Assembly (NCBI RefSeq): GCF_035818615.1 | Contig: NZ_JAYKZY010000002.1 | Coordinates: forward strand, 126,501-190,500 | Length of the DNA: 64,000 nt | Direction: 5' to 3' | From: Sphingobium sp. CR2-8 | GTDB lineage: Bacteria > Pseudomonadota > Alphaproteobacteria > Sphingomonadales > Sphingomonadaceae | Part shown: positions 18,939 through 38,801 of the stretch, piece after piece | How the letters are laid out: every line of letters begins with the position of its first letter | Numbering within the stretch: position 1 is the first letter of the stretch | The notes under the pieces: model-generated | Databases searched by the model: none | Seen by the model: only the letters and a program-made list of their open reading frames with translations | What the model was told of the DNA's origin: nothing | Made by a program: the position numbers and the translations under genes

Positions 18939-18980
18939 ATATCACTCGTGATGTTCTTAAGCTGAAAAGGAGCGATGCTC

Positions 18981-20602: not shown

Positions 20603-21733
20603 ATGGTGCGCGTATCAAAGCCTTCCTTCCTGCCCGATCCCTTTTTGATCTGCCTGATCGCAACGGTTGTCGGCGCATCGTTCATCCCGGTGCGCGGCGC
20701 TGCCATTCCCTGGGTCGAGGCGACAACGGATTTTGCGATTGCGTTGCTTTTTTTCCTGCACGGGGCAAAATTATCGCGCGAGGCGGTGCTGGCCGGCGCG
20801 GGCAACTGGCGGCTCCACCTTTATGTTCTGAGCTCCACCTATATTCTTTTTCCTCTGATCGGCCTGACTTTGGTCGCCTTGTTGCACGGCCATGGCAATG
20901 ACTTGCTGCTCAAGGGTCTTGTTTACCTCAGTCTGTTGCCATCGACGGTCCAGTCCTCGATCGCCTTTACCGCGATTGCGGGCGGCAATGTCGCCGCGGC
21001 GGTCTGTAGCGCGTCCCTGTCCAATATTGTCGGCATTATCCTGACGCCACTTCTGGTCGGCCTGTTCATGGCGGTCGACGGCGGGGGTAGCGCTTTTTCC
21101 TGGCACTCGGTTCAGGCGATCGCGCTGCAACTGCTCGTCCCCTTTTTGGCAGGGCATCTGATGCGGCCATGGATCGGCGCGTTTATCGACCGCAACAAGC
21201 GGTTGTTGATGCCTGTTGATCGTGGGTCGATCCTGCTTGTCGTCTACACCGCGTTCAGCGCCGCCGTGGTGAGCGGCATCTGGACTGAGGTGGGCATCTT
21301 CGACCTCCTTATGCTGTTGCTGCTCAGCCTGGTGATGCTGATCGTCGTGATGGGCGCCAATCTGGGCCTTGCGCGGCTGGTGGGTCTGCCACGCGCGGAC
21401 ATGATCGTTTTACTGTTTTGCGGGTCGAAGAAGAGCCTTGTGTCAGGCGTGCCGATGGCTGGCGCGTTGTTCCCGGCGGCGCAGGTCGGCATCATCATCC
21501 TGCCGCTGATGATCTTTCATCAGGTGCAACTTTTCCTGTGCGCCGCGCTCGCAAGCCGGTTCGCACGTGCAGGGCGTGCGCGTCCGCTCATCCCTCGGAC
21601 CGTGGCCGAAATCGAAAGCGCGTCGCAGCGGCTGGGCCTGACCATTGCCGAACCCTGTATGGCGGGCGTTACCGCTAATCTCGCCCTGCTGGACCGCCAC
21701 GCCGACACCTTGTTCAAAACCGAGACACCGTGA
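20603..21733 (+). CDS. SBF-like (YfeH-type) permease fused to an HpxX/AtzG-like C-terminal domain
   Basis: 376 residues. Residues 1-325 form a bile-acid:sodium-symporter-like permease with about ten helices (LFFLHGAKLSREA, SIAFTAIAGGNVAAAVCSAS, CGSKKSLVSGVPMA), as in E. coli YfeH. Residues 330-376 (VAEIESASQRLGLTI, GVTANLALLDRHA) match the small AtzG/HpxX (DUF4089) subunit that normally is a separate protein partnered with an AtzE/HpxY amidase. The next gene is that amidase, overlapping by 4 nt (GTGA). No stop or homopolymer separates the halves; an internal GTG at 21602 lacks a ribosome site. AAGGGGGG precedes the ATG. The transported substrate is unknown; a ureide or carboxylate is plausible. 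Confidence 0.85.
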   Translation: MVRVSKPSFLPDPFLICLIATVVGASFIPVRGAAIPWVEATTDFAIALLFFLHGAKLSREAVLAGAGNWRLHLYVLSSTYILFPLIGLTLVALLHGHGNDLLLKGLVYLSLLPSTVQSSIAFTAIAGGNVAAAVCSASLSNIVGIILTPLLVGLFMAVDGGGSAFSWHSVQAIALQLLVPFLAGHLMRPWIGAFIDRNKRLLMPVDRGSILLVVYTAFSAAVVSGIWTEVGIFDLLMLLLLSLVMLIVVMGANLGLARLVGLPRADMIVLLFCGSKKSLVSGVPMAGALFPAAQVGIIILPLMIFHQVQLFLCAALASRFARAGRARPLIPRTVAEIESASQRLGLTIAEPCMAGVTANLALLDRHADTLFKTETP

Positions 21734-23067
21734 AGTCGGCGCTAGAGATCGCTGCCGCCGTCCGGTCGGGTCAGACCAGCGCCATGGCCGTGCTGGATGA
21801 TTGCCTCGCGCGATTGGATATGCACGCTGGGCCATTGGTCGCCATAACACGCATGCTGACCAGTCGCGCCCGGACAGAGGCCGCCGCCGTCGATGCCGCC
21901 ATCGCGGCCGGGCGCGATCCGGGGCCGCTCGCGGGCGTGCCCTATGGTGTCAAGGATCTGTTTGACATATGCGGCCTGCCGACGACGGCGGGATCCAGCC
22001 TCTATGCCGATGCAACGCCCGCGCAAGCCGATGCGGACGCGATCAGGCGCCTGCGCATGGCAGGTGCAGTGCTGGTCGCGACGCTTAACATGGACGAGTT
22101 CGCCTATGGCTTCGCCACGATCAATGCCAGGCACGGCACGACGCGCAACCCCCATGACCTTGACCGCCTGGCCGGTGGCTCATCTGGCGGATCGGCGTCG
22201 GTGGTTGCGGCCGGACTGCTGCCATTCTCGCTAGGGTCCGACACCAACGGATCAATCCGCGTGCCCGCCAGCTTGACCGGCATCTATGGTTTGAAACCCA
22301 CCCATGGCGCACTGCCAATGGGTGGGGTATTTCCCTTTGCCGATAGTTTCGACGATATCGGTCCCTTTACCCGTTCGACCGCCGACATGCAGTGTCTCTG
22401 GCAGATATTGGGCGGGGTCGACATGACGGTCAGTGATCCGATCCGGGTCGCACGGCTCGGCGGACGTTTCCGCGACAATGCCGATCCCGACCAGATCGTA
22501 GCGATCGACAGCATCGCGCCCGACGCGCCACTGATCGAACTGCCCGACATTGCTCGCGCACGCTCCGCCGCTTTTCTGATTACCGCTGCCGAAGGCGGCA
22601 GGCTGCACCGCGCATCATTGTGCCGCGACGCGATGGCGTTCGACCCGGCCACGCGGGATCGCCTGATAGCAGGCGCCCTGCTGCCCGATACGCTGTATGA
22701 CGCTGCCCAGCGATTTCGCGCGGACTATAAGCGACGCATCACCGCCATCATGGAAACCTATGATGTGCTGCTGGCCCCTGCGGCGCCCTGCGTAGCGCCG
22801 TCGATCGCGGACCCGCGCATTCTGATCGACGGCGCGTTGTCGCCCGCCCGCGCGGATCTCGGCATCCACAGCCAGCCGATCAGTTTCACCGGCTTGCCAT
22901 CCCTGTCCGTGCCGTTGCGCCGTCCGGGCCGGTTGCCGCTGGGGTTGCAACTGATAGGCAGGGCAGGGAGCGAGGCGACATTGTTCCGCCTGGCTGCGAC
23001 ACTGGAAGATAAGGGACTGACCGGCGTGACATCGCCGACGGGCGCATTTCGGGGGGACGCTTCATGA
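21730..23067 (+). CDS. hpxY: HpxY/AtzE-like amidase
   Basis: 445 residues of the amidase-signature family. The Ser-Ser-Lys machinery is visible: Lys in PYGVKDLFD, and AGGSSGGSASVVAAG with the cis-Ser and nucleophile Ser (SDTNGSIRVPAS). HpxY of Klebsiella and AtzE of cyanurate degraders hydrolyse small ureide-type amides together with HpxX/AtzG. Here the partner domain is fused to the upstream permease. The likely substrate is oxalurate, made by the aminotransferase further down; this is inference from the hpx context. The GTG start overlaps the preceding TGA. Confidence 0.85.
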   Translation: MKSALEIAAAVRSGQTSAMAVLDDCLARLDMHAGPLVAITRMLTSRARTEAAAVDAAIAAGRDPGPLAGVPYGVKDLFDICGLPTTAGSSLYADATPAQADADAIRRLRMAGAVLVATLNMDEFAYGFATINARHGTTRNPHDLDRLAGGSSGGSASVVAAGLLPFSLGSDTNGSIRVPASLTGIYGLKPTHGALPMGGVFPFADSFDDIGPFTRSTADMQCLWQILGGVDMTVSDPIRVARLGGRFRDNADPDQIVAIDSIAPDAPLIELPDIARARSAAFLITAAEGGRLHRASLCRDAMAFDPATRDRLIAGALLPDTLYDAAQRFRADYKRRITAIMETYDVLLAPAAPCVAPSIADPRILIDGALSPARADLGIHSQPISFTGLPSLSVPLRRPGRLPLGLQLIGRAGSEATLFRLAATLEDKGLTGVTSPTGAFRGDAS

Positions 23068-24413
23068 CGGACGTGGTGATAAAGCCGGGGGCAGGGCGGC
23101 TGGAACGCTATTTTGGGCTGTCCGCACGCGGGACGTCGGCCCAGACCGAGATATTGGCCGGTTTCACCACCTTTCTGACCATGGCCTATATCGTGCTGGT
23201 CAATCCCGCGATCCTGGGGCAGGCAGGGATGCCCATCGCGGCGGTGGCGGCCGCGACCTGCTTCGCTGCCGCCTTTGGCTCCATCCTGATGGGACTGGTC
23301 GCCAACACGCCGCTGGCGCTGGCGCCGGGCATGGGGCTTAACGCCTATTTCAGCTTCACCGTCGTGCAGCAGATGGGCGTTCCCTGGCCAATCGCGCTGG
23401 GCTGCGTTTTCATTTCCGGCATCGCTTTCCTCCTCCTGACCCTGACCGGGGTACGGCAGATGATCGTGGCCGCCATCCCGATGCACCTTTTCGCGGCGGT
23501 CGCGGGTGGCATCGGACTGTTCATCGGCTTCATCGGCCTGAAGAATGCGGGCATCGTCGTCGCCAATCCCGCAACCTTCGTAGCGCTGGGCGACCTCAAA
23601 GCGCCTGGCGCCGCGCTTGCCCTGTTCGGCCTGCTGGTCATCGGCGTGCTCAGCGTCTGGAATGTGCGCGGCGCGATGCTGATCGGCATCGTCGCGACGA
23701 CATTGGTGGGCTGGCTGTGCGGGCAGGTGGTCGTCAGCCCCGAACCTTACAGCCTCGACGCCTTGACCGGCACGGCCTTCAAACTCGACCTGTCGGGTGT
23801 GTTCGGCCTCACTGGCAGCCATGGCCTGGGCCTCCTCGAAATCCTGTTCGTCTTCCTCTTCGTCGACCTGTTCGACAATATCGGCACGCTGGTGGCCGTC
23901 ACGAAACGGGCGGGCCTGATGGACAAGGCCGGGCGCATCCCCGGCCTCAACCGCATCCTGCTGGCCGACGCCGCCGCCACGGTCGTCGGGTCGGTGGCGG
24001 GCACCAGCACCGTCACCTCCTATGTCGAAAGCGCGGCGGGCGTTCAGGCGGGCGGGCGCACCGGGCTCACGGCGGTCGTCACCGGCATCCTCTTCCTGGC
24101 CACCATGTTCGTTGCCCCCTATGCCCAGCTCGTCCCGCTGGCGGCGACCGCGCCTGCGCTCATCATCGTGGGTGGCCTGATGCTGTTGCCCCTGACGGAA
24201 GTGGAGTGGGAAGATCCCCTCTCGGCGATCCCCGCTTTCCTGACCGTGGCGATGATCCCGCTGACCTTCTCGATCGCCAATGGCCTGGCCTTCGGCATCA
24301 CCGCCCACGCGATCTTGAAGCTGTTGCGCGGCACCGCGAAGAGGACCGACTGGTTCCTCTTCCTGCTCGCCGCCCTGTTCGTTGCCCGCTTCATCTGGAT
24401 GGGGGCGGCTTGA
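23064..24413 (+). CDS. NCS2-family (AzgA-type) purine permease
   Basis: 449 residues with about 12-13 membrane segments. RYFGLSARGTSAQTEILAG and FLTMAYIVLVNP are the AzgA-branch N-terminal signature; NIGTLVAVTKRAG, and GTSTVTSYVESAAGVQAGGRTGL in the substrate-binding half-helices, also fit. The branch imports adenine, guanine or hypoxanthine with protons. It overlaps the amidase by 4 nt and the next gene by 1 nt. It feeds adenine deaminase, guanine deaminase and XdhAB encoded in the same operon. Confidence 0.93.
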   Translation: MTDVVIKPGAGRLERYFGLSARGTSAQTEILAGFTTFLTMAYIVLVNPAILGQAGMPIAAVAAATCFAAAFGSILMGLVANTPLALAPGMGLNAYFSFTVVQQMGVPWPIALGCVFISGIAFLLLTLTGVRQMIVAAIPMHLFAAVAGGIGLFIGFIGLKNAGIVVANPATFVALGDLKAPGAALALFGLLVIGVLSVWNVRGAMLIGIVATTLVGWLCGQVVVSPEPYSLDALTGTAFKLDLSGVFGLTGSHGLGLLEILFVFLFVDLFDNIGTLVAVTKRAGLMDKAGRIPGLNRILLADAAATVVGSVAGTSTVTSYVESAAGVQAGGRTGLTAVVTGILFLATMFVAPYAQLVPLAATAPALIIVGGLMLLPLTEVEWEDPLSAIPAFLTVAMIPLTFSIANGLAFGITAHAILKLLRGTAKRTDWFLFLLAALFVARFIWMGAA

Positions 24414-25328: not shown

Positions 25329-26915
25329 ATGATGACGCATTCCACCATCAGCGGCACGAACGGCATGGTGACGGCGCCCCACTGGCTGGCGGCGCAAACA
25401 GGCTGCGCCGTGCTGAAGGACGGCGGCAATGCGGTGGAGGCGGCGGTCGCCGTCGCCGCAACGCTGGCGGTCGTCTATCCGCACATGACCGGAATAGGCG
25501 GCGACAGTTTCTGGCTGGTCGCGCAGCCGGATGGATCGATCGACAGCGTGCATGGCTGCGGCGGCGCGGCGGCAATGGCCGATCTGGGCCTCTACGCGGG
25601 TCATGCCGCGGTGCCGACGCGCGGCCCGCTCGCCGCCAATACGGTGGCAGGCACGTTGTCGGGCTGGGCCGCGCTGCTGGAAAGCGGCGGCGGCACCTTG
25701 CCCCTGTCCCGGCTGTTGCGTGACGCCATCCATCATGCCGACAATGGCGTAGGGGTAACGCGCGGAGGCGCGGCCATCGCGGCGGCCAAGGGGGACGAAC
25801 TGCGCATCCAGCCTGGCGCCTATGCCGCGATCTTCGAACCCGATGGCGCGCCGCTGCATGAAGGCGCGACCTTGCGCCAGCCAGCCCTTGCCGCCACTTT
25901 GCGGGCGATCGCCGCCGATGGAATCGCCGATTTCTACACCGGCGCTCTCGCCGACAAGGTGGCCCAGGATCTGGCAGCGCTGGGCAGCCCGGTCGGTCGC
26001 GAAGATCTGACCGCGCATCGCGCGACCCGTCCCGTCCCGCTGACGACCCGGATCGGCGGCATGGACCTGATCAACAGCGCGCCCCCGACGCAGGGTTTCG
26101 CATCGCTCCTGATCCTGGCCCTGTTCGATCGCCTCTCCGCCGCGCAGGCAGATGGCTTCGACCATGTCCATGGCCTGGTCGAAGCCACCAAGCAGGCGTT
26201 CCTGCTGCGCGATATCCATGTCGGCGACCCTGACTTCCATGATTTCGACTATCAGGGCCTGCTGGCCGACCCGCACGCGTTGGATGCCATCGCCGCCTCG
26301 ATCGATCCGGCCCGCGCCATGCCCTGGCCCCGGCCGTCGGCGCAGGGCGACACCTGCTGGTTCGCCGCAGCCGACAGGGATGGACGCATAGTCAGCGCCA
26401 TCCAGTCTACCTATTTTGAATTCGGGTCGGGCCTGGTCCTGCCGCAGACCGGCATCACCTGGCAAAATCGGGGCAGCAGCTTTCGGCTGGCGGTGGATGG
26501 CTGGAATGTGCTGGCGCCCGGCCGCAAGCCCTTCCACACGCTCAACCCCGCGCTGGCCCGCTTCGACGATGGGCGGCTCATGGCCTATGGCACGATGGGC
26601 GGCGAAGGCCAGCCGCAGACCCAGGCGGCGCTGTTCACCCGCTATGCCCGGTTCGGCGTCGACCTTCAGCAGGCAATCAGCGCCCCGCGCTGGCTGTTGG
26701 GACGAACCTGGGGCGAGGACAGCACCACGCTCAAGCTGGAAGATGGGTTCGACGATGCGCTCTACGCGCAGCTCGCCGCCGCCGGTCATGATGTCGAGCG
26801 TGTCGGGCCGTTGACCGCGCTGATGGGCCATGCCGGTGCCATCGTCCGCCATGCCGACGGCCGCCTCGACGGCGCGACCGATCCGCGCAGCGACGGGCAG
26901 GTGGCGACATGGTGA
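25329..26915 (+). CDS. hpxW: HpxW-like oxamate amidohydrolase (gamma-glutamyltransferase fold)
   Basis: 528 residues of the Ntn-hydrolase GGT family without a signal peptide. The autoprocessing/nucleophile Thr is Thr342 in QGDTCWFAAADRDG. IQSTYFEFGSGLVLPQTG and WQNRGSSF downstream are the pattern of the oxamate amidohydrolase HpxW rather than classic GGT (TTHFSVVD). It should convert oxamate to oxalate and ammonia, the last nitrogen-releasing step of the hpx route. It starts 1 nt after the previous stop and overlaps the next gene by 7 nt. Confidence 0.85.
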   Translation: MMTHSTISGTNGMVTAPHWLAAQTGCAVLKDGGNAVEAAVAVAATLAVVYPHMTGIGGDSFWLVAQPDGSIDSVHGCGGAAAMADLGLYAGHAAVPTRGPLAANTVAGTLSGWAALLESGGGTLPLSRLLRDAIHHADNGVGVTRGGAAIAAAKGDELRIQPGAYAAIFEPDGAPLHEGATLRQPALAATLRAIAADGIADFYTGALADKVAQDLAALGSPVGREDLTAHRATRPVPLTTRIGGMDLINSAPPTQGFASLLILALFDRLSAAQADGFDHVHGLVEATKQAFLLRDIHVGDPDFHDFDYQGLLADPHALDAIAASIDPARAMPWPRPSAQGDTCWFAAADRDGRIVSAIQSTYFEFGSGLVLPQTGITWQNRGSSFRLAVDGWNVLAPGRKPFHTLNPALARFDDGRLMAYGTMGGEGQPQTQAALFTRYARFGVDLQQAISAPRWLLGRTWGEDSTTLKLEDGFDDALYAQLAAAGHDVERVGPLTALMGHAGAIVRHADGRLDGATDPRSDGQVATW

Positions 26916-28156
26916 GCGCTCTGCCTCCTGGCGGCGCGCGCGCCGTGGCCCGCTGCGATATGCTGGGCGTCGCGCCCTTCAGCGACATGGAAGGCGGCCT
27001 TTATCGCGGCTATCTGACCCCGGCCTATGCCGCCGCGCAGGATGCGCTGGCCCTATGGATGGCACAGGCGGGCATGGTCGTCCGCCGCGATGCCGCCGCC
27101 AACCTGATCGGTCGCTATGACGGCGGTCGGCCCGGTGCCCCCGCGCTTCTGATCGGCAGCCATCTCGACAGCGTGCGCGACGGCGGCCGCTATGACGGAC
27201 CACTGGGCATCATGCTGGGTGTCGAGGCCGTGGCGGCATTGCACCAAAGCGGCAAACGCCTGCCTTTCCCGATCGAAGTCATCGCTTTTGGTGATGAGGA
27301 AGGGTCGCGCTTCCCCTCCGCCATGCTGACCAGCCGCGCTGTTGCGGGCACGCTGGTGCCCGAAGCGCTCGATATCGTCGATGCGGACGGTGTCCCGCTG
27401 TCGCAGGCGGGCGTCAGCGTGCCCGACTATCTTGCCGCCGCGCGCCCGCCCGGCACGACGCTCGCCTATCTCGAAGCGCATATCGAGCAGGGGCCGGCGC
27501 TGGAAGCGGCTGGTCTGGCCGTTGGCACCGTGACCGGTATCGCCGCGCAACTGCGCTATCAGGCCGTCGTCACGGGCATGGCGGGACATGCGGGCACCAG
27601 TGCGATGTCGCTGCGCCGCGATTCGTTGGCGGGCGCGGCCGAGATGATCCTGGCCATCGAAACGATCGCCCGCGCCGATGCTTCCGATCTGGTGGCGACC
27701 GTCGGGCGGATCGCGGGGTTGCCCGGCGCGCCTAATGTGATCGCCGGGGAGGTGCGTTTCTCCATCGACATCCGCTCAGGCGACGAAGCGCGGCGGGATC
27801 GGGCGGCGGACGCCATATTGGACGCCCTTGTCGCCATCGCCGATCGCCGTGCGCTCGATGTCGACATCCAGCGCGTCCACGATCTGCCCGCCAGTCCGTG
27901 CGATCCAGCGCTCATGGACCTCATGGACGCCGCCACCGCCGCTGCGGGTCATCCGGTCCGCCGCCTCGTATCAGGCGCGGGGCATGACGCCATGGTAATG
28001 GCCGCGCTGTGCCCGACCGCCATGATCTTCATCCGCTGCAAGGGCGGCATCAGCCATCATCCTGCCGAACATGTCGATCCTGCCGATGCCGATGCGGCGC
28101 TAAAGGTCATGCTTGGCTTCATCGACCGATTGGGAGCGACCTTTGACCCTGCTTGA
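26909..28156 (+). CDS. M20-family allantoate amidohydrolase-like enzyme
   Basis: 415 residues. The two-metal site of the allantoate/ureidoglycolate amidohydrolase and carbamoylase family is visible: GSHLDSV, GGRYDGPLG, GDEEGSRF, EAHIEQGP, and a distal His in SHHPAEH. Allantoate amidohydrolase (AllC, HpxK) releases ammonia and CO2 from allantoate to give ureidoglycine, the substrate of the aminotransferase encoded next. It lies between hpxW and that aminotransferase, overlapping both. N-carbamoyl-amino-acid hydrolase is the alternative reading but fits the operon less well. Confidence 0.87.
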   Translation: MVSALPPGGARAVARCDMLGVAPFSDMEGGLYRGYLTPAYAAAQDALALWMAQAGMVVRRDAAANLIGRYDGGRPGAPALLIGSHLDSVRDGGRYDGPLGIMLGVEAVAALHQSGKRLPFPIEVIAFGDEEGSRFPSAMLTSRAVAGTLVPEALDIVDADGVPLSQAGVSVPDYLAAARPPGTTLAYLEAHIEQGPALEAAGLAVGTVTGIAAQLRYQAVVTGMAGHAGTSAMSLRRDSLAGAAEMILAIETIARADASDLVATVGRIAGLPGAPNVIAGEVRFSIDIRSGDEARRDRAADAILDALVAIADRRALDVDIQRVHDLPASPCDPALMDLMDAATAAAGHPVRRLVSGAGHDAMVMAALCPTAMIFIRCKGGISHHPAEHVDPADADAALKVMLGFIDRLGATFDPA

Positions 28157-29477
28157 CCCCCTGCTCTTTGGCGAAGTCGACCCACCGCAGCGGTTGCTGA
28201 TGGGCCCGGGGCCGGTCAATGCCCACCCCCGCGTACTGCGCGCCATGTCGGCCGACCTGCTGGGTCAGTTCGATCCCGAAATGACGGGCTATATGAATCA
28301 GGTCATGGCACTTTACCGCCCGATCTTCGGCACGCACAACCCATGGACGATGCTGATCGACGGCACCGCGCGCGCAGGCATAGAGGCCGCGCTGGTATCG
28401 CTGGTCGCACCGGGCGACACTGTGCTGGTCATCAATTTCGGTCGTTTTGGCCTGCTGCTGCGCGAAATCCTGGCCCGCATCGGCGCCGTCATCGCAACGG
28501 TCGATGCGCCCTGGGGCGAAGTGGTGCCGATGGAGGCGATTGCCGCCGCCATCGCACGCACCGCCCCTAAAGTCGTCGCCTGCGTCCATGGGGACACATC
28601 GACCACCATGGCCCAGCCGCTCGACGGTTTGGGAGGGCTGTGTCGCGCGGCGGGCGCCTTATGCTATGTCGACGCCACCGCGACCATCGGTGGCATGGAG
28701 ATCGCGGCGGACCGTTGGGGCGTCGACATCGTCACCGGCGGTTTGCAGAAATGCCTGGGCGGACCGTCCGGCTCGGCGCCGATCACCATTTCGGACCGGG
28801 CAGCCGACCATATCTTTGCCCGTCGCCATGTCGAGGCGGGCATTCGCAGCGCAGACAGCGTCGACGGGGCAGGGCCGCGCATCGGCTCCAACTATTTCGA
28901 CCTCGCCATGATCATGGACTATTGGTCGGACAAGCGCCTGAACCATCATACCGAAGCGACATCGATGCTCTACGCCGCACGGGAATGTGCGCGGGTGATG
29001 CTGGGGGAGGGCGCGCAGGCCTGTTATGCCCGCCATGCCGCGGCGGGCCGGGCGATGAGCGCGGGCCTGCGCGCCATGGGCCTCACGCTCTTTGGCGACG
29101 ACGCCCATCGCATGACCAACGTGACCGGCGTGTTCATCCCCGACGGGGTCGACAATGACCGGGTCCGCACCGCCATGCGCAATCATTTCGAGATCGAGAT
29201 CGGCACCGCCTTTGGCCCGCTTCAAGGGCGCATCTGGCGCATTGGCGCGATGGGCTATAATGCGATGAAGCATAAGGTGCTGATCACGTTGGGCGCTTTG
29301 GAGGCCTGTCTGATGCAGGAAGGCTTCACCCTGCCCCCGGCGCGGCGGTGCGCGCGGCGCTGGAGGCGTGGGACGCATGATCCTGCCCCGCGACCTTATC
29401 GGCTATGGGCCGAACCCGCCCGATCCGCGTTGGCCCGGCGGTGCGCGTATAGCTGTCCAGTTCGTTGTCAATTATGA
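28143..29477 (+). CDS. Ureidoglycine-glyoxylate aminotransferase-like (class V), C-terminus shifted by 1 nt
   Basis: Class V PLP aminotransferase of the PucG/HpxJ type: RLLMGPGPVNAHPRVL, DATATIGGMEIAAD, and the PLP-lysine Lys203 in GGLQKCLGG. It should transfer ammonia from ureidoglycine to glyoxylate, giving oxalurate and glycine. The TTG start has GGAG 7 nt upstream. After FTLPP the frame changes at a run of five C (29334-29338). With six C the protein would end AAVRAALEAWDA at 29380, overlapping the next ATG by 4 nt like its neighbours. As given, it runs 32 residues of nonsense into puuE. A sequencing error is likely. Confidence 0.85.
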   Translation: MTLLDPLLFGEVDPPQRLLMGPGPVNAHPRVLRAMSADLLGQFDPEMTGYMNQVMALYRPIFGTHNPWTMLIDGTARAGIEAALVSLVAPGDTVLVINFGRFGLLLREILARIGAVIATVDAPWGEVVPMEAIAAAIARTAPKVVACVHGDTSTTMAQPLDGLGGLCRAAGALCYVDATATIGGMEIAADRWGVDIVTGGLQKCLGGPSGSAPITISDRAADHIFARRHVEAGIRSADSVDGAGPRIGSNYFDLAMIMDYWSDKRLNHHTEATSMLYAARECARVMLGEGAQACYARHAAAGRAMSAGLRAMGLTLFGDDAHRMTNVTGVFIPDGVDNDRVRTAMRNHFEIEIGTAFGPLQGRIWRIGAMGYNAMKHKVLITLGALEACLMQEGFTLPPARRCARRWRRGTHDPAPRPYRLWAEPARSALARRCAYSCPVRCQL

Positions 29478-30264
29478 GGAGGGCGCCGAAAACAACGTCC
29501 TCAACGGCGACAAAAGCTCTGAAGCCTTTCTGTCCGAAATGGTTGGCGCCACCAGCCACCCGGCGCGCGCCATGGCGATGGAAAGCCTCTATGAATATGG
29601 CAGTCGCGCGGGCTTCTGGCGGCTGCACCGCCTGTTTGCCGAACGCGGGCTACCGGTGACGGTGTTTGGCGTCGCGAGGGCAATGGCGATGAATCCGGCA
29701 GCGGTCGACGCGATGCTGGCGGCCGATTGGGAAATCGCCAGTCACGGCCTGAAATGGATCGACTATCAATATGTGCCGGAGGATGTGGAGCGCGCCCATA
29801 TCGCGGAGGCGATCGCCCTTCACCAGAGCCTTACCGGCACGCGCCCGCTCGGCTGGTATCAGGGCCGCACCTCGCCCAACACCGCTCGGCTTGTGGCGCA
29901 GGACGGCGGCTTTCTCTACAATGCCGACAGCTATGCCGACGACCTGCCTTACTGGGATCATCTGCACGGCCGACCGCAACTTGTCGTGCCCTACACGCTC
30001 GACGCCAACGACATGAAGTTCGCCGCGCTCAACGGCTTTACCGAGGGCGATCAGTTTTTCCGCTATCTGCGCGACACGTTCGACCAGTTGCGCCGCGAGG
30101 GCGGCCGGATGATGTCGATCGGCCTGCACGGCCGCATCGCCGGTCGACCGGCCCGCGCTGCCGCGCTCGCCCGCTTCCTCGACCATGTCATCGCTTGTGG
30201 AGACGCATGGGTCGCCCGCCGCATCGACATTGCCCGCCACTGGATGGAGGTCCACCCCGCATGA
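29377..30264 (+). CDS. puuE: Allantoinase, polysaccharide-deacetylase type (PuuE/HpxB)
   Basis: 295 residues. The N-terminus MILPRDLIGYGPNPPDPRWPG and the motif VNYEEGAENNVLNGD are diagnostic of the metal-independent PuuE allantoinase. SHGLKWIDYQYVPED and GWYQGRTSPNT continue the NodB-like barrel. It hydrolyses allantoin to allantoate. It is unrelated to amidohydrolase-type AllB. The ATG overlaps the restored aminotransferase stop by 4 nt, and the stop overlaps hpxZ by 4 nt. Confidence 0.93.
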   Translation: MILPRDLIGYGPNPPDPRWPGGARIAVQFVVNYEEGAENNVLNGDKSSEAFLSEMVGATSHPARAMAMESLYEYGSRAGFWRLHRLFAERGLPVTVFGVARAMAMNPAAVDAMLAADWEIASHGLKWIDYQYVPEDVERAHIAEAIALHQSLTGTRPLGWYQGRTSPNTARLVAQDGGFLYNADSYADDLPYWDHLHGRPQLVVPYTLDANDMKFAALNGFTEGDQFFRYLRDTFDQLRREGGRMMSIGLHGRIAGRPARAAALARFLDHVIACGDAWVARRIDIARHWMEVHPA

Positions 30265-30653
30265 CCATAGACGATCCGATTTTGCTCGCCGAAATCACCG
30301 CCGCTTTCGCCGAATATGAGCGCGCGCTGATGGCGGACGACGTGCCCGCCATGGACGCGCTGTTCCACGACGCACCCACCACCAATCGCTATGGCGTGGG
30401 CGAAGTGCTGTACGGCATCGAGGAGATTCGCGCCTTTCGCAAAGGCCGCGGCGGATCGCCCCAGCGCACATTGGGGAAGGTCGCGATCACCGTCTATGGC
30501 GACAACTTCGCCACCGCCGATGCCGAGTTCTTTCGCGAAAACAGCGACCGGCGCGGCCGCCAGACGCAAAGCTGGGTCAAGTTCGCCGACGGCCCCTTTG
30601 GTGGCTGGAAAGTCGTATCGGCGCATGTCAGCCTGGAGGGGAACACGCATTGA
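30261..30653 (+). CDS. hpxZ: HpxZ-like protein (DUF3225/AtzH-like)
   Basis: 130 residues of the SnoaL-like fold. NRYGVGEVLYGIEEIRAFRKGR and RQTQSWVKFADGPFGGWKVVSAHVS are the DUF3225/AtzH pattern. HpxZ is encoded with HpxWXY in Klebsiella and is thought to assist or belong to the amidase step; its exact reaction is not established. Here it lies between puuE and the OHCU decarboxylase gene, with 4-nt overlaps on both sides. Confidence 0.85.
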   Translation: MTIDDPILLAEITAAFAEYERALMADDVPAMDALFHDAPTTNRYGVGEVLYGIEEIRAFRKGRGGSPQRTLGKVAITVYGDNFATADAEFFRENSDRRGRQTQSWVKFADGPFGGWKVVSAHVSLEGNTH

Positions 30654-31090
30654 GTGCGCTGTTTGAACATAGTCCCTGGGTGGAGGCGCGCGCCGACGCG
30701 CTGCCCTCGTCGGGTGATCGCCATGCCGATCTGATGGCGGTGCTTCATGACGCGACGCCGGACGAGCAATTGGCGCTGATCCGCGCGCATCCCGAACTAG
30801 CGGGCAAGGCGGCGATTGACAGGACGCTGACTGCCGCTTCGGCCGCCGAACAGGCGTCGGCTGGCCTCGATCGCCTGACCCCGCCGGAATATGAACGCTT
30901 CCACGCCCTCAACGCTGCCTATCGTGCGCGCTTCGACTTTCCCTTCATCATCTGCGTGCGGTTGACCGACAAGGCGGGTATATTGGCCGCCATGGAACAA
31001 CGCCTGGGCCATAGTCGCGACGAGGAAGTCGCAACCGCCCTGGCCCAGATCGGCGAGATCGTCCGGCTTAGGCTGGAGGACGCCGCATGA
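30650..31090 (+). CDS. 2-oxo-4-hydroxy-4-carboxy-5-ureidoimidazoline (OHCU) decarboxylase
   Basis: 146 residues. FEHSPWVEARA, LIRAHPELAGK with the catalytic His, and YERFHALNAAYRARFDFPFIICV are the family signature (UraD/PucL N-domain/HpxQ). It decarboxylates OHCU to S-allantoin. The start is TTG with GGAGG 10 nt upstream. The protein begins almost at FEHSPW, so the usual 15-20 residue N-terminal helix is missing or short. It is next to the flavoprotein and HIU hydrolase genes, giving the urate to allantoin segment of the pathway. Confidence 0.92.
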   Translation: MSALFEHSPWVEARADALPSSGDRHADLMAVLHDATPDEQLALIRAHPELAGKAAIDRTLTAASAAEQASAGLDRLTPPEYERFHALNAAYRARFDFPFIICVRLTDKAGILAAMEQRLGHSRDEEVATALAQIGEIVRLRLEDAA

Positions 31091-32517
31091 TTGCCCCCAT
31101 CGGCCTGCCCGCGCTGGAGGCGGAACTTGCCCGGCAACTCGTCCTGATCGGCCATGGCGGCACCGACTGGACCCGGCCGCGCGTCCATCCCCAAGGGCAT
31201 GTTTATGACGTGGTCATTGTTGGCGGCGGGCAAAGCGGCCTAGCCGCTGCCTTTGGCCTCATGCGCGAACGGGTGTCCAACATCCTCGTCATAGATGAAA
31301 ATCCCGCCGGGCTGGAAGGGCCGTGGGATACCTATGCGCGGATGATAACGCTGCGCACGCCCAAGGAACTCAACCCCATCGATTTCGGCATTCCCGCTTT
31401 GGCCTATCGCGCCTGGTGGGAGGCGCAGCATGGCGCAGCGGGCTGGGACGCGGTTGGCAAGATCGCGCGCGGCGACTGGATGGCCTATCTGCGCTGGTAT
31501 CGTCGCGTTCTGGGTATCCCGGTGCGCAACGACACGCGGCTGAAACGCATCGAGCCAATGGGCGATGGCCTCCATCGCCTGCATCTCGACGGCCAGCCGT
31601 CGTTGCTGGCGCGCAAGGTGGTGCTGGCCACCGGCATCCAGGGCGGAGGCGAATGGCATATCCCGGCCATGATCCGCGATGCGTTGCCGCGCAGCCTATA
31701 CGCCCATACCAGCGAACCGATCGACTTTGCCGCACTGACAGGCAAGCGGATCGGCATATTGGGTGGCGGGGCGTCGGCGTTCGACAATGCAAATGCGGCA
31801 TTGTCCCTGGGCGTGGCCGCGACCCATGTCTTTATCCGCCGCCCGGTGTTGCCGCGCATCAACCCGATCCGCTTCATGGAGCGGGTGGGCTTTACCGGCC
31901 GCTATCCAGCGCTGGACGATGCGGAAAAATATGCGGTGATGGCGTCCTTCCTGGGCCATAATCAGCCGCCGACCAACGACACATTCGATCGCGCAGCCGC
32001 CTGGCCGGGTTTCTCGCTGCATCTGGGCGCGCCCTGGCTGGGGGTCGAGCAAGCCGATGGCGCCGTGCGCGTCACGACACCGCAGGGGGAGCATGCATTG
32101 GATTTCCTTGTCCTGTCCACCGGGCTGGTCAGCGACCCTGGCCTGCGCCCCGAACTGAGCCTGGTCGCCAACGGCATCGCTCGCTGGGCCGATCGATTCA
32201 CGCCTTCGCAGGGCGACGCCAACGCGCTGATCGACGCGCATCCCTATCTGGGGGATGGTTTTGAACTGCTGCCCCGTACCGACGATGACGCGATGATGCT
32301 GCACGGCCTGTTCGCCTTCAACTATTCCGCGCTCATCAGCCTGGGCCTGTCGGCTTCCGCCCTGTCGGGCCTGCGCACCGCGCTGCCACGACTGGTGAAG
32401 GCTCTGACCGACCAGCTTTTCCTGGACGATCGCGGCGCACTGGTCGCCGACCTGCTGGCCTATGACGAGGCGGAATTTGTCGGGCAATGGCCACGACCCA
32501 CGGAGGCGGCGGCATGA
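31087..32517 (+). CDS. Two-dinucleotide-fold flavoprotein monooxygenase, candidate urate hydroxylase
   Basis: 476 residues. The FAD motif [15 protein letters not shown] starts near residue 41 and an NAD(P)-binding motif [14 protein letters not shown] near 222, as in class B (FMO/BVMO-like) monooxygenases. [15 protein letters not shown] follows the first domain. It is encoded between OHCU decarboxylase and HIU hydrolase with 4-nt overlaps on both sides, exactly where a urate-oxidising enzyme would be expected. No uricase, PuuD or HpxO (class A fold) is present. I therefore infer that it oxidises urate to 5-hydroxyisourate; a role on another purine cannot be ruled out. Confidence 0.72.
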
Positions 32518-32846
32518 AGGCGGGCCTTTCCACTCATGTCCTCGACACCAGCCATGGTTGTCCTGCCGCCGGGGTCGCGCTGCGCCTGATCGACGGCGAA
32601 GGGACCCTGTTATTCGCCGCCGTCACAAATCTGGACGGCCGCTGTCCCGGCCTGCCGGCGGTGCCGCCGGGGCGCTATCGGCTGGAATTTTCGGTCGCCG
32701 CCTATTTTGCCGGACGCGGCGTGGCCCTTGCCGACCCACCCTTCCTCGATACCGTGGTGCTGGACTTCGGCATCGCCGATCAGGGCCATTATCATGTCCC
32801 CTTGCTCGTCTCGCCCTATGGCTATTCGACGTACCGGGGGAGTTGA
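32514..32846 (+). CDS. 5-Hydroxyisourate hydrolase (transthyretin-like)
   Basis: 110 residues, the size of bacterial HIU hydrolases. [17 protein letters not shown] supplies the first catalytic His; TNLDGRCP and [19 protein letters not shown] supply the others and the diagnostic C-terminal YRGS tetrapeptide. It hydrolyses 5-hydroxyisourate to OHCU. No signal peptide, so it is cytoplasmic. GGAGG lies 8 nt before the ATG. Its presence implies that urate is oxidised in this organism. Confidence 0.95.
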
Positions 32847-32847
32847 G

Positions 32848-34275
32848 GTGAGCGTGCGTTTTCTGTTGAATGGCGAGACGGTCGAGATCGCCGATGTCGA
32901 TCCTACCGCCACGCTCCTTGATCATCTGCGCTACACGATGCGCCGCACCGGCACCAAGGAGGGCTGTGCGGAGGGTGATTGCGGCGCCTGCACTGTGCTG
33001 CTGGGCGAACTGGATGGCGACGCGATGGCCTGGCGCGCGGTCAATGCCTGCATCCTGTTCCTGCCTATGCTGCATGGTCGGGCGCTGCTGACGGTCGAAA
33101 GCCTTGCCCCTGCGGGCGCACTCAACCCGCTTCAGGCTTGCATGGCCGCCAATGGCAGCTCGCAATGCGGCTTCTGCACCCCGGGCTTCGTCATGTCTCT
33201 TTATGGTCGATGCGTCGGCGCCAGCGGCCATGACCTGCCGGTGGCCGATGTGCTGGCAGGCAATCTGTGCCGGTGCACCGGCTATGGTCCGATCCTGGCG
33301 GCTGGCGAGGCGGTCGGCACGCTGCCGCGCGACGATAGGGCGACCGTGGCCGCGCTCAAGGCGTTGTCGGACGGGCCCGGCACGTCTGGCCAGCATAGCG
33401 AACGCCGCTGGTTCGCGCCGCGCAGCTGTGCCGCGTTGGCCGACCTACTCACCGAACATCCCGATGCGCGCATGGTCGCGGGCGCGACCGATGTCGGCTT
33501 GTGGGTGACGAAGGGGTTGCGCAGCATCGATACGCTGATCTTCCTGGGCGACATCGCTGAATTGCAGGGGATGGAGGAAAGTCCGGAGGGCGTTCAGCTG
33601 GGCGCGGGCGTGCGCTATGCCGATGCCCATGGCGCCTTTGCGCGCCTTCACCCCGATTTAGGCGAACTCATCCGGCGGATCGGCGGCTTGCAGGTCCGCA
33701 ATGCCGGAACGGTCGGCGGCAATATCGCCAATGGCTCGCCGATCGGCGACGGGCCGCCCGCCTTCATCGCCCTGGGTGCGCAACTGACATTGCGCAGCAA
33801 GGACGGACGCCGGATCATGCCGCTGGAGGACTATTTTCTCGACTATGGCCAGCAGGACCGTCGTCCTTTCGAATTTGTCGAAAGCCTCTGGATTCCCCGC
33901 CCCGGCCAGGATGCCGTCATCCATATCGCCAAATTGTCGCGCCGCTTCGACAGTGACATTTCTGCGGTATGCGGCGCGTTCCATCTGACCGTGCGGGATG
34001 GGATCATCGCCGCCGCGCGCATCGCCTTTGGCGGCATGGCTGCCACGCCGCGCCGCGCACCGCTGTGCGAAGCCGCGCTGGTCGGCCAGCCGTTCACGCT
34101 GGCCACGATGAACCAGGCCGCCACCGCCCTGCGCACCGACTATACCCCGCTGTCCGATGTGCGTGGCTCCGCTGCCTATCGGCTCGACGTCGCCGCCAAT
34201 CTGCTGCCGCGCCTGTGGCATCAGGCGCAGGGTCAGGCCGTGTCGGTGCTCGACCTGGATGCCGTCCATGGCTGA
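32848..34275 (+). CDS. xdhA: Xanthine dehydrogenase, Fe-S/FAD subunit
   Basis: 475 residues. Residues 1-160 carry both [2Fe-2S] clusters: GCAEGDCGACTV (plant-ferredoxin type) and SQCGFCTPGF with NLCRCTGYGPI. From about 190 the FAD-binding domain follows (MVAGATDVGLW, GGLQVRNAGTVGGNIANGSPIGD), ending in the CO-dehydrogenase-flavoprotein C-domain. It passes electrons from the molybdenum subunit to NAD. The GTG start follows GGGGGAG; the previous stop is 1 nt upstream. It overlaps xdhB by 8 nt. Confidence 0.95.
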   Translation: MSVRFLLNGETVEIADVDPTATLLDHLRYTMRRTGTKEGCAEGDCGACTVLLGELDGDAMAWRAVNACILFLPMLHGRALLTVESLAPAGALNPLQACMAANGSSQCGFCTPGFVMSLYGRCVGASGHDLPVADVLAGNLCRCTGYGPILAAGEAVGTLPRDDRATVAALKALSDGPGTSGQHSERRWFAPRSCAALADLLTEHPDARMVAGATDVGLWVTKGLRSIDTLIFLGDIAELQGMEESPEGVQLGAGVRYADAHGAFARLHPDLGELIRRIGGLQVRNAGTVGGNIANGSPIGDGPPAFIALGAQLTLRSKDGRRIMPLEDYFLDYGQQDRRPFEFVESLWIPRPGQDAVIHIAKLSRRFDSDISAVCGAFHLTVRDGIIAAARIAFGGMAATPRRAPLCEAALVGQPFTLATMNQAATALRTDYTPLSDVRGSAAYRLDVAANLLPRLWHQAQGQAVSVLDLDAVHG

Positions 34276-36577
34276 TCGCGACGCCGCCTGGGGTGTGTTG
34301 CCCAAACCGTCGCACCCGCATGATAGTGCGCATCTGCACGTTACCGGCGCGGCCCGCTACGCCGATGACGCGCCGGAACCGGCCGACATGCTCCATCTCG
34401 CCTTTGGCCAGAGCATCCATGCGCATGCCCGTATCGTGGCCATGGACCTGTCCGCCGTGCGTGCGGCCGAGGGGGTGGTCCATGTCTTCACCGCCGCCGA
34501 TATAGTCGGCGCCAATGACGTCAGCCCGGTGGCGGGCGACGACCGTCTGCTGGCCGATGGCGAAGTGATCTGCGTCGGACAGGCCATCTTCCTGGTCGCC
34601 GCCACCAGCCAGCGCGCCGCGCGCCGGGCCGCACGCCTTGGCAAGATCGAATATGAACCGTTGCCTGCCTGCCTGACGATAGAGGCGGCGCAACTGTCCA
34701 ACTCGTTGATCGAACCGACCCAGCGCATGGCGCGCGGCGATGCGGATGCCGCGCTGGCGACCGCGCCCCATCGCCTGACCGGCGGCTTCGACATGGGTGG
34801 GCAGGATCATTTCTACCTGGAGGGTCAGGTGGCGGTCGCGACTCCTGGCGAGGACGGCCAGATTCATCTGCTCAGCTCCACCCAGCATCCCAGCGAAGTC
34901 CAGCATCTGGTCGCCCATATGCTCCACCGCAGTTCCGCCGACGTGACGGTGGAGGTGCGGCGCATGGGCGGCGCCTTTGGCGGTAAGGAGACGCAGGCCG
35001 CCCTGTTCGCCGCCGCCGCCGCATTGGTCGCGGACAGGACCGGTCGCCCCGCCAAGTTCCGCTGCGACCGGGACGACGACATGGTGATGACTGGCAAGCG
35101 CCATGCTTTCCGTATTGGCTATGATGTCGGCTTCGATGCTTCGGGCCATGTGCTGGCGCTGCGCCTGCGCCTGGCCTCGCGCTGTGGCGCCACGGTCGAT
35201 CTGTCCCCTGCGATCAACGACCGGGCGATGTTCCATGCCGACAATTGCTACTGGCTGCCCGACGTCGAAATCCTGTCGGAGCGGCTGAGGACCAACACCG
35301 TTTCCGACACGGCCTTTCGCGGCTTTGGCGGGCCACAGGGGATGCTGGCGATCGAGCGGGTGATGGACGATGTCGCCGCGCATCTGGGCCATGATCCACT
35401 CGCCGTCCGCTGCACCAATCTCTACGGACCCGGTCGCGATGTCGCGCCCTATGGCATGACCATTGCCGACAATATCGCGCCGCAACTCATCGCCCGCCTG
35501 CGCGCCGACGCCCGCTACGACGCCCGCAGCGACGCGATTGCCGCCTTCAACGCCACAAGCCCGATCATTAAGAAGGGGATAGCCCTGACCCCGGTCAAGT
35601 TCGGGATCAGCTTCACCACCACCCATTTGAATCAGGCTGGCGCGCTGGTGCTGGTCTATGCCGACGGATCGATCCAGATCAATCATGGCGGCACGGAAAT
35701 GGGGCAGGGCCTCTATATCAAGGTGGCGCAGGTCGTCGCCGACGTCTTCGCCGTTCCGATCGACCAGGTACGGATCACCGCCACCCGCACCGACAAGGTG
35801 CCCAATACATCGGCCACTGCCGCCTCGTCCGGCGCGGACCTCAACGGCATGGCCGCCTATAATGCCGCAATGACGATCCGCGACCGGCTCACCGGCTTCC
35901 TCGCCCGCACCTTCGACTGTGCCGACAGCGCCGTTCGCTTCACGCCCGAAGGCGTGATGGCCGGGACGCAGCGCCTAAGCTTCGCCCAGCTTTGTCGCAA
36001 GGCGCATATCGGCCGCATATCGCTCGCCGCCACCGGCTATTATGCCACGCCCGGCATCGCCTATGATCGCGCTGCGCATCAGGGCCGCCCCTTCTATTAT
36101 TTCGCCTACGGCGCCGCGGTGGCGGAAGTTGCGATCGACACGCTGACCGGCGAGCATAAGGTGCTGGCCGTCGACATCCTCCACGATGTCGGGCGATCGC
36201 TCAACCCGGTGATCGACATCGGCCAGATCGAGGGCGGCTTCATCCAGGGGCAGGGATGGCTCACGACCGAGGAGCTGATCTTCGACGATCAGGGCCGATT
36301 GCTCACCCATTCGCCCGCGACCTACAAAATCCCCACCGCGTCCGACCGGCCGACCCATTTGACGATCAACCTGTGGGACGGGGAAAATGTCGAACCGACC
36401 ATCAATCGCTCGAAGGCCGTCGGCGAACCCCCGTTCATGCTCGCCATCTCGGTCTTTTCCGCTCTGACCCGCGCGGTGGCCGCCGTCGCACCGGATATAC
36501 GCGCGCTGCCGCGCCTCGACGCGCCGGCCACACCCGAACGCATCCTGCGCGCCGTGACGGAGCATCGCATCCGATGA
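34268..36577 (+). CDS. xdhB: Xanthine dehydrogenase, molybdopterin-binding subunit
   Basis: 769 residues. Mo-cofactor and substrate motifs are visible: GGQDHFYLEGQVA, RRMGGAFGGKETQA, DTAFRGFGGPQGM, NHGGTEMGQGLYIK, NTSATAASSGADLNG, and the catalytic Glu in GEPPFML near the C-terminus. It hydroxylates hypoxanthine to xanthine and xanthine to urate using water. The start ATG at 34268 overlaps xdhA by 8 nt. With xdhA and xdhC it forms a complete XdhABC set. Confidence 0.96.
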   Translation: MADRDAAWGVLPKPSHPHDSAHLHVTGAARYADDAPEPADMLHLAFGQSIHAHARIVAMDLSAVRAAEGVVHVFTAADIVGANDVSPVAGDDRLLADGEVICVGQAIFLVAATSQRAARRAARLGKIEYEPLPACLTIEAAQLSNSLIEPTQRMARGDADAALATAPHRLTGGFDMGGQDHFYLEGQVAVATPGEDGQIHLLSSTQHPSEVQHLVAHMLHRSSADVTVEVRRMGGAFGGKETQAALFAAAAALVADRTGRPAKFRCDRDDDMVMTGKRHAFRIGYDVGFDASGHVLALRLRLASRCGATVDLSPAINDRAMFHADNCYWLPDVEILSERLRTNTVSDTAFRGFGGPQGMLAIERVMDDVAAHLGHDPLAVRCTNLYGPGRDVAPYGMTIADNIAPQLIARLRADARYDARSDAIAAFNATSPIIKKGIALTPVKFGISFTTTHLNQAGALVLVYADGSIQINHGGTEMGQGLYIKVAQVVADVFAVPIDQVRITATRTDKVPNTSATAASSGADLNGMAAYNAAMTIRDRLTGFLARTFDCADSAVRFTPEGVMAGTQRLSFAQLCRKAHIGRISLAATGYYATPGIAYDRAAHQGRPFYYFAYGAAVAEVAIDTLTGEHKVLAVDILHDVGRSLNPVIDIGQIEGGFIQGQGWLTTEELIFDDQGRLLTHSPATYKIPTASDRPTHLTINLWDGENVEPTINRSKAVGEPPFMLAISVFSALTRAVAAVAPDIRALPRLDAPATPERILRAVTEHRIR

Positions 36578-37494
36578 GCGAATGGCTGGACTGGCTGCGC
36601 GCAACCGTCGGCAAAAAATCGGGCGCGCTGGTCAGCATCGTGGCGAGCGAAGGCTCCGCGCCGCGCGGGGCGGGGACGCGGATGCTCGTCACGGACGACG
36701 CGCTCTATGGCACGATCGGCGGCGGCCAGCTCGAATATCGCGCGGTCGAGCAGGCGCGTGCCATCTTGGCCCACCCGCCGGGGCATTGGCGGGTGCAGGA
36801 TTATCCGCTGGGGCCGCTGCTGGGCCAATGCTGCGGCGGGCGCGTGCGGCTGCTTATCGAACATCTCGATCCTGCAACCATGGACTGGCTGGCCGATGCC
36901 GCAGACGAACGCATCCTGGTCTCGACGTTCATGCCCGACAGGGTGGAACGCTATGTCAACGATCATGCCCTGCCATCCAGCCTGTCGGCACGCGGCGACC
37001 GCCCCCGCGCAGGCGACAGCCTGGCGGAGATTATCGGCCAGCATTGTCGGCCGGTCTATCTGTTCGGCGCTGGCCATGTGGGACAGGCGATCGCCCGCCA
37101 CGCCGTCAATCTGCCACTTCGCCTCTCCTGGTTCGATACCCGTCCGGTGTTCGAAACGATCGAAGGAGTCGCCGTGGTGCCCGAATTGGCGATCGAACAC
37201 TGTGTTGCGGATGCGCCGGAAGACGCCGCCATCCTTATCCTGACCCACGACCATGGACTGGACTATCGCCTGACCCTTGCTGCTCTCGTCCGCTCGCCTT
37301 GCGCCTTTATCGGCCTTATCGGCTCCGCGACCAAGGGTGCCCGTTTCCATGCGCGGCTGGCGAAAGACGGTGTCGACGCGCAGACGCGCGGCCGTCTGAC
37401 ATCGCCGATCGGCGTACCAGGCGTCATGGGCAAGGAGCCTGATGTCATCGCCATCGCCGTTCTGGCCCAACTGCTCCAATTGAGGGCGTCATGA
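36574..37494 (+). CDS. xdhC: XdhC, molybdenum cofactor insertion chaperone
   Basis: 306 residues. The N-terminal XdhC/CoxI domain has SEGSAPRGAGTRMLV and GQCCGGRVRL; the C-terminal Rossmann domain has LFGAGHVGQAIARHA and FIGLIGSATKG. XdhC binds and sulfurates the molybdenum cofactor and delivers it to XdhB. It overlaps xdhB and the guanine deaminase gene by 4 nt each. Confidence 0.95.
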   Translation: MSEWLDWLRATVGKKSGALVSIVASEGSAPRGAGTRMLVTDDALYGTIGGGQLEYRAVEQARAILAHPPGHWRVQDYPLGPLLGQCCGGRVRLLIEHLDPATMDWLADAADERILVSTFMPDRVERYVNDHALPSSLSARGDRPRAGDSLAEIIGQHCRPVYLFGAGHVGQAIARHAVNLPLRLSWFDTRPVFETIEGVAVVPELAIEHCVADAPEDAAILILTHDHGLDYRLTLAALVRSPCAFIGLIGSATKGARFHARLAKDGVDAQTRGRLTSPIGVPGVMGKEPDVIAIAVLAQLLQLRAS

Positions 37495-38801
37495 CGGCGG
37501 AAGCTAGGACTCTGCGGGGCTTTCGCGGCGAACTCCTGTCGGTATCGCGCGACCCGCGACTGCATCCCGACGCGGTTCGCCACGAACCGGACGGCTTGCT
37601 GGTGGTGGAGGATGGCATCGTCATCGCGCGGGGCGATCATGCGCAACTGGCTCCCCGCTATCCGGGGCTGGGGATCCACCCGTTGCCCGGCCTCATCGTC
37701 CCAGGCTTCATTGACGCCCATGTCCATTATGCGCAGATGGATCATATCGCCTCGCACGGCGCACAATTGCTCGACTGGCTCGATCGCCATATTTTCCCGG
37801 CCGAAAAGGCCTTTGCCGACCGCGCCCATGCGGATCGCACCGCGACGCTTTTCCTGGACGAGTTGCTGCGCAACGGTACGACCAGCGCACTGGTCTTTCC
37901 CACCGTCCATGCCCTTTCGGTCGATGCCCTTTTCGACGCGGCGCTGGACCGGAACATGCGCATAGTGTCGGGCAAGATCCTGATGGACCTGGGACCCGAT
38001 GGGCTGGCCGATACGGTCGATAGCGGCCGGGACGACAGCGACGCGCTGATCCGGCGGTGGCGCGGGCGCGGACGCCTTGGTTATGCGATCACGCCACGCT
38101 TCGCCCTGACCTCCTCGGACGCGCAATTGCAGGTGGCGGGCGCCCTGCTGGCCGACCATCCCGACACGCTGTTGCACACCCATCTGGCCGAAAATGTCGA
38201 CGAATGCGCTGCGGTGGCCGATCGCTTTGCGACGGCGCAGGATTATCTGGACGTCTATGACGGCTTCGGTCTGGTCGGCGACCGATCGGTCTTCGCCCAT
38301 GGCGTCCATCTGTCCGACCGCGCCTGCACCCGCCTGGCGCACAGCGGCGCGGGGATCGCCGTCTGCCCCAGTTCCAACCTGTTCCTGGGGTCGGGCTTCT
38401 TCGACTTCGGGCAGGCGGACGCCCATGGCGTGCGCGTGGGTCTTGGCACCGACATTGGCGCCGGCACCTCCTTCTCGCTGCTTCATACCGCCGGTTTGGC
38501 CTATCAGGCTGCGCTATCGCGCCATTATCCGCTCGATCCCTTCCGCGCGCTCTATCTGGCGACGGCGGGCAGCGCCGCTCTGCTGCGGATCGACGATCGG
38601 GTCGGCGGCCTGGAGCCGGGGCAGGAGGCTGACTTCGTCGTGCTGGATGGCAACGCCACGCCATTGCTGGCGCGCCGCACGGCAAAAGCCACGCTTGCAG
38701 AACGCCTGTTCGCGCTGCAAATCCTGGGCGACGACCGCGTCGTCGCCCGGACTTATATCATGGGCCAATGTGCCTGGGACCGAAGAGGCATATTATCATG
38801 A
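37491..38801 (+). CDS. guaD: Guanine deaminase
   Basis: 436 residues of the amidohydrolase superfamily. PGLIVPGFIDAHVHYAQ provides the HxH zinc ligands and the guanine-deaminase pattern; HTHLAENVDE, FAHGVHL and VGLGTDIGAGTSFSLL supply the other ligands and substrate contacts. It converts guanine to xanthine and ammonia in the cytoplasm, feeding XdhAB. Operon overlaps of 4 nt on both sides. Confidence 0.94.
   Translation: MTAEARTLRGFRGELLSVSRDPRLHPDAVRHEPDGLLVVEDGIVIARGDHAQLAPRYPGLGIHPLPGLIVPGFIDAHVHYAQMDHIASHGAQLLDWLDRHIFPAEKAFADRAHADRTATLFLDELLRNGTTSALVFPTVHALSVDALFDAALDRNMRIVSGKILMDLGPDGLADTVDSGRDDSDALIRRWRGRGRLGYAITPRFALTSSDAQLQVAGALLADHPDTLLHTHLAENVDECAAVADRFATAQDYLDVYDGFGLVGDRSVFAHGVHLSDRACTRLAHSGAGIAVCPSSNLFLGSGFFDFGQADAHGVRVGLGTDIGAGTSFSLLHTAGLAYQAALSRHYPLDPFRALYLATAGSAALLRIDDRVGGLEPGQEADFVVLDGNATPLLARRTAKATLAERLFALQILGDDRVVARTYIMGQCAWDRRGILS

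Follow-up and report, generated by a model that had tools for sequence, protein, structure and literature searches.

Which enzyme oxidises urate in the purine operon of Sphingobium sp. CR2-8 is the question that this locus raises. The operon lies on the + strand of the window (the whole stretch of 64,000 nucleotides that we analysed, and to which positions refer unless another locus is named). The original prediction had claimed that it encodes XdhABC, HIU hydrolase, OHCU decarboxylase and PuuE, and all of these indeed score over the cut-offs of curated models: uraD, the OHCU decarboxylase gene (30650..31090; TIGR03164, 170 bits, cut-off 96), hiuH/uraH, encoding 5-hydroxyisourate hydrolase (32514..32846; TIGR02962, 107 bits, cut-off 87), xdhA, for the small subunit of xanthine dehydrogenase (32842..34275; TIGR02963, 566 bits, cut-off 467), xdhB, for its molybdopterin subunit (34268..36577; TIGR02965, 1195 bits, cut-off 850), xdhC, for the XDH accessory protein (36574..37494; TIGR02964, 264 bits, cut-off 162), and puuE, for allantoinase (29368..30264; TIGR03212, 509 bits, cut-off 425). 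The starts of the three xdh genes are predicted ones, and that of hiuH, deduced from an ATGA overlap, is most likely 32514 rather than the ORF start at 32487.

The same operon also carries genes for guanine deaminase (37491..38801; TIGR02967, 511 bits, cut-off 375), allantoate amidohydrolase (26909..28156; NF006775, 574 bits, cut-off 479), the AtzH-like HpxZ of the oxalurate branch (30264..30653; NF033625, 143 bits, cut-off 135; PF11533), an AtzE-family amidase (21730..23067; TIGR02715, 531 bits, cut-off 426) and a nucleobase permease of the Xan_ur_permease family (23064..24413; PF00860, E 2.5e-42). A PucG-type ureidoglycine-glyoxylate aminotransferase (28113..29477, with the true start probably slightly downstream) has 3nnk as its best PDB match (E 1.1e-144), while a gamma-glutamyltransferase-like, HpxW-like protein (25329..26915), putatively of the oxamate amidohydrolase type, best matches 5hft (E 1.5e-89), which we take to be Klebsiella HpxW, an oxamate amidohydrolase. 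Given the curated-model matches together with those to 3nnk and 5hft, the operon encodes a purine-to-ureide pathway that probably includes an oxalurate branch.

Two further reading frames on the same strand deserve mention. Directly 5' of the AtzE-family amidase, positions 20603-21733 encode a transporter of the SBF-like type (PF13593) that ends in an AtzG/HpxX-like stretch at its C-terminus, the latter matching PF13318 at 20 bits, under the cut-off of 24; the same transporter/AtzG-like fusion is found in one ORF on a plasmid of Sphingobium sp. V4, where PF13318 reaches 25.2 bits and thus passes the cut-off. An amidase small subunit fused to a transporter looks unusual. The other frame, 18975-20165, encodes a flavoprotein monooxygenase of class A type, which has PRK07588 as a related model (253 bits, below the cut-off of 454) and also matches the tetracycline destructase model at 209 bits, below the cut-off of 550.

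Between uraD and hiuH lies one gene, in what we call the slot. It is an ORF of 476 codons on the + strand (31087-32517), and its ATG overlaps the uraD stop codon (31088-31090) as ATGA at 31087-31090, just as its own stop overlaps the likely hiuH start as ATGA at 32514-32517. The protein was predicted to be a flavoprotein with two dinucleotide-binding motifs, and these are present as GGGQSG (residues 46-51) and GGGASA (residues 226-231). Its best Pfam matches are FAD/NAD(P)-binding families, and neither PF01014 (Uricase) nor PF06181 (PuuD) appears in its Pfam table. In the PDB, the best matches are the flavin monooxygenases 4c5o and 4a9w; with these and with the ArsO family the protein has the N-terminal two-motif region in common, but only about residues 40-233 align and the score is far under the ArsO cut-off, ArsO being the best match in a search of NCBIfam that gave no model over its cut-off (51 bits vs 425). 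The expectation that the protein is not HpxO-like was borne out as well, as it has no match to the HpxO model NF033623 (cut-off 500 bits), and none of its PDB matches at E 0.01 (7 distinct sequences) bears the name HpxO.

The genome of this strain (4.5 Mb in 3 contigs, 99.84% complete) has no match to Uricase PF01014 and none to PuuD PF06181, while the HpxO model gives 11 matches, none of them over 500 bits and the best at 191. The gap in the pathway described in the original prediction is thus found at the level of the whole genome. One could still propose that the operon's flavin monooxygenase has some other purine or pyrimidine as its substrate and that urate is oxidised by a class A HpxO-like protein elsewhere, and the 11 sub-cut-off matches, one of which is encoded in the window at 18975-20165, might be taken to speak for this, as might a Rhizobium relative (41% identity) found near an annotated 8-oxoguanine deaminase gene, with two genes between. 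However, the three best HpxO-like proteins score only 191, 170 and 104 bits against the cut-off of 500 and are matched better by other models (3-hydroxybenzoate 6-monooxygenase, PRK06847 and PRK07588), a similar sub-cut-off background occurs in 12 of 14 control genomes, and none of the 11 matches adjoins the genome's one uraD match. We consider this proposal to be very improbable. An HpxO elsewhere in the genome was accordingly rejected, the candidates being sub-cut-off class A proteins for which other models score better, and the slot gene is the natural candidate for the missing step of urate oxidation.

A scan for relatives of the slot protein across genomes that carry an organism name gave 110, of which we kept the best 80. 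These come from sphingomonads, Xanthomonas, Pseudoxanthomonas, Bacillota and metagenome-assembled genomes (MAGs). The loci were mapped by placing the window genes on each stretch and counting gene order. Within the best 80 of 110, the order uraD-gene-hiuH on one strand occurs in 64 of 67 non-Bacillota loci, the three exceptions being two Pseudoxanthomonas loci without a local uraD and one Caulobacteraceae MAG in which hiuH is further off. Given this conservation of the slot, the idea of a chance ORF was rejected. In Lysobacterales, the slot is found in 20 of 22 loci, the other two being those of Pseudoxanthomonas, which have no uraD there.

The Xanthomonas slot genes encode proteins 65-69% identical to that of the window over nearly the full length. 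A urate oxidase of Xanthomonas that is non-homologous to HpxO has been named HpyO (Michiel et al. 2012, PMID 23760935, as reported in PMC4562309, and cited also in PMC5138847, PMC5270733 and PMC10117892). PMC4562309 (Doniselli et al. 2015) describes HpyO as an enzyme that works with NAD(P)H and FAD and is a member of a hydroxylase family other than that of HpxO, and regards the repertoire of urate oxidases as nearly complete with uox, hpxO, hpyO and puuD, 12 cases in 1689 species being unexplained. All three Xanthomonas genomes tested (L079, L087 and L073) have UraD but lack Uox, PuuD and any HpxO over cut-off, and because of this we identify the Xanthomonas slot gene, by elimination, with the published HpyO. 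A gene of X. campestris is reported to have given an Acinetobacter baylyi strain back the ability to use urate.

A tree was computed from 98 proteins, and one clade of 80 rows (SH-aLRT 99) unites the window gene with those of Xanthomonas and Bacillota; the tree was built by a quick method, and several of its outer rows stand on long branches and are unsure in placement. We also aligned 36 sequences (alignment A1), namely 23 rows of the HpyO clade, 12 distant rows and one intermediate, L010. Twenty positions are fixed in the 23 HpyO-clade rows and present in at most 2 of the 12 distant ones, and L010 (50% identity, in the slot), which was left out of this 23-versus-12 count, agrees with the HpyO clade at 6 of these positions. 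The likeness to HpyO of Xanthomonas comprises 65-69% identity, the uraD-hpyO-hiuH slot, the FAD/NAD(P)-binding motifs and a genome in which no other urate oxidase was found. The two differ in that Xanthomonas belongs to another bacterial order than the window strain, and whereas 38 of the 80 kept loci include relatives of XdhA, XdhB and XdhC, no Xanthomonas stretch shown does.

The original prediction had assigned the protein to a new family, and a genuinely new family of urate hydroxylases, unrelated to any assayed enzyme, might seem plausible from databases: no NCBIfam model passes its cut-off (ArsO, at 51 bits vs 425, being closest), and generic names only are borne by the annotated ones among 25 listed of 281 plasmid records with a relative. 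The identity of 65-69% and the same slot in Xanthomonas, the source of the characterised HpyO, argue strongly against it, and we regard it as very improbable; the part of the original prediction that spoke of a new family thus has to be given up, HpyO being known from Xanthomonas. The proposed function fared better, as the slot position and the pathway gap make the protein very probably an enzyme converting urate to 5-hydroxyisourate. Judging from sequence, and with the Xanthomonas slot gene taken as HpyO by elimination, we are thus highly confident that the window gene is hpyO (31087..32517, +), predicted from its uraD-hiuH slot, its identity to Xanthomonas proteins, its clade and the pathway gap to encode an FAD/NAD(P)H-dependent urate hydroxylase acting on urate.

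HpyO is not the only solution to this pathway step. HpxO, the class A FAD urate hydroxylase of model NF033623, catalyses the same reaction with the same cosubstrates, as stated in PMC4562309, but belongs to another flavoprotein family, and PuuD (PF06181), a membrane cytochrome c urate oxidase that serves the same step, is an unrelated membrane protein. How these enzymes are distributed was assessed by a survey of 147 genomes of the order. An OHCU decarboxylase match is present in 38 of them, and 34 of these 38 have a strong match to PuuD (E at most 9.4e-55), which is the prevalent alternative there. The slot gene (cut at 1e-60) occurs in two, G000 and G410 (82% identity), which are also its only carriers among the 147, and the remaining two (G299 and G360) have neither. 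None of the 147 genomes has the slot gene together with PuuD, none has Uricase, and four (G300, G325, G375 and G391) have a strong PuuD with no OHCU match. The alternation of PuuD and HpyO is the pattern expected of isofunctional enzymes, though it rests on few cases, because only 2 of the 147 genomes carry the slot gene.

As to the two OHCU-positive genomes with neither enzyme, G360 is 85% complete, its OHCU match is a fragment of just 29 residues, and PF06181 matches it only weakly and over a short length. G299 is a complete genome with an OHCU match and has no uricase, PuuD, HpyO or over-cut-off HpxO; its UraD-like ORF (L134, 9349-10209) adjoins a guanine deaminase gene, and tblastn of this 19-kb stretch found no relative of hiuH or hpyO. 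Two other genomes have more distant relatives, one sitting in the slot (G175, 50% identity) and one (G277, 47%) sharing a contig with UraD at a distance of about 7 kb, and neither genome has Uox, PuuD or over-cut-off HpxO.

Bacillota account for 13 of the 80 kept loci (best 80 of 110), at 54-65% identity. The slot order is found in one of these 13 (Mesobacillus, L107); five further loci have uraD and hiuH in the stretch, outside the slot, and seven have neither within it. On a Priestia plasmid, the gene order is permease-uraD-uraH-gene. Of ten proteins encoded beside hpyO at four Bacillota loci, most come from unrelated families and one is a permease of the purine/cytosine type. In all seven Bacillota genomes tested (L081, which is Cohnella thermotolerans, L092, L097, L101, L103, L105 and L107) UraD is present, in some of them with hpyO away from uraD. 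As Uox, PuuD and over-cut-off HpxO are missing from all of these seven UraD-positive genomes, HpyO very probably serves Gram-positive bacteria too. No report of a Bacillota HpyO was found among the papers that literature searches listed or in the Discussion and selected passages of PMC4562309.

Relatives at 36-47% identity are common, and not all of them can be urate enzymes; the fold alone is no proof of substrate. Apart from the case in G277, they are often located elsewhere than in the uraD-hiuH slot. In G208, PuuD adjoins uraD and the HpyO relative is on a different contig, while G035 and G102 both have HpyO relatives and no UraD match. G035 has two HpyO-like genes (L135 and L136), one copy of which adjoins HiuH-like and XdhA/B-like genes. 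An Azospirillum copy is located after sarcosine oxidase and dipeptidase genes. The relative on pRL10 of Rhizobium leguminosarum (L147, 6977-8428; 41% identity) adjoins a gene of the questin oxidase family, has sugar-transporter and amidohydrolase genes around it, is followed by an annotated 8-oxoguanine deaminase gene with two genes between, and is possibly a hydroxylase of another oxopurine. Among the plasmid records with a relative, 279 of 281 lie below 60% identity. A wider scenario may be drawn in which the HpyO lineage would be one branch of a broad class B-like family of flavoproteins that hydroxylate purines and related heterocycles, having spread to Bacillota and there taken the place of uricase in a peroxide-free oxidation of urate, with the rhizobial and other plasmid relatives of 36-47% identity hydroxylating other oxopurines or heterocycles; we offer it as a speculation, and rather doubt that it holds.

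Flavin monooxygenases form a C4a-(hydro)peroxyflavin from reduced flavin and O2, and a plausible course of the reaction of HpyO may be outlined on this basis. The N-terminal Rossmann motif would hold FAD and the second motif NAD(P)H, the reduced flavin would react with O2 to give the C4a-(hydro)peroxyflavin, and this would add a hydroxyl group to C5 of urate, yielding 5-hydroxyisourate and, as the by-product, water rather than H2O2. The unstable 5-hydroxyisourate would then pass to HIU hydrolase and OHCU decarboxylase, the products of the two overlapping neighbour genes.

The HpyO family was thus already described (Xanthomonas, 2012), and the window gene itself appears to hold no novelty as a family; the pathway gap in this strain is very probably closed by a known enzyme. 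Public annotation fails to carry its name, with generic designations (NAD(P)/FAD-dependent oxidoreductase or hypothetical protein) in the listed plasmid records and no NCBIfam model over cut-off. Urate oxidation in some Bacillota and in a small share of the sphingomonads (2 of 147 genomes sampled) would escape surveys that search for Uox, PuuD and HpxO alone, and the 20 discriminating positions could seed a curated HpyO model.
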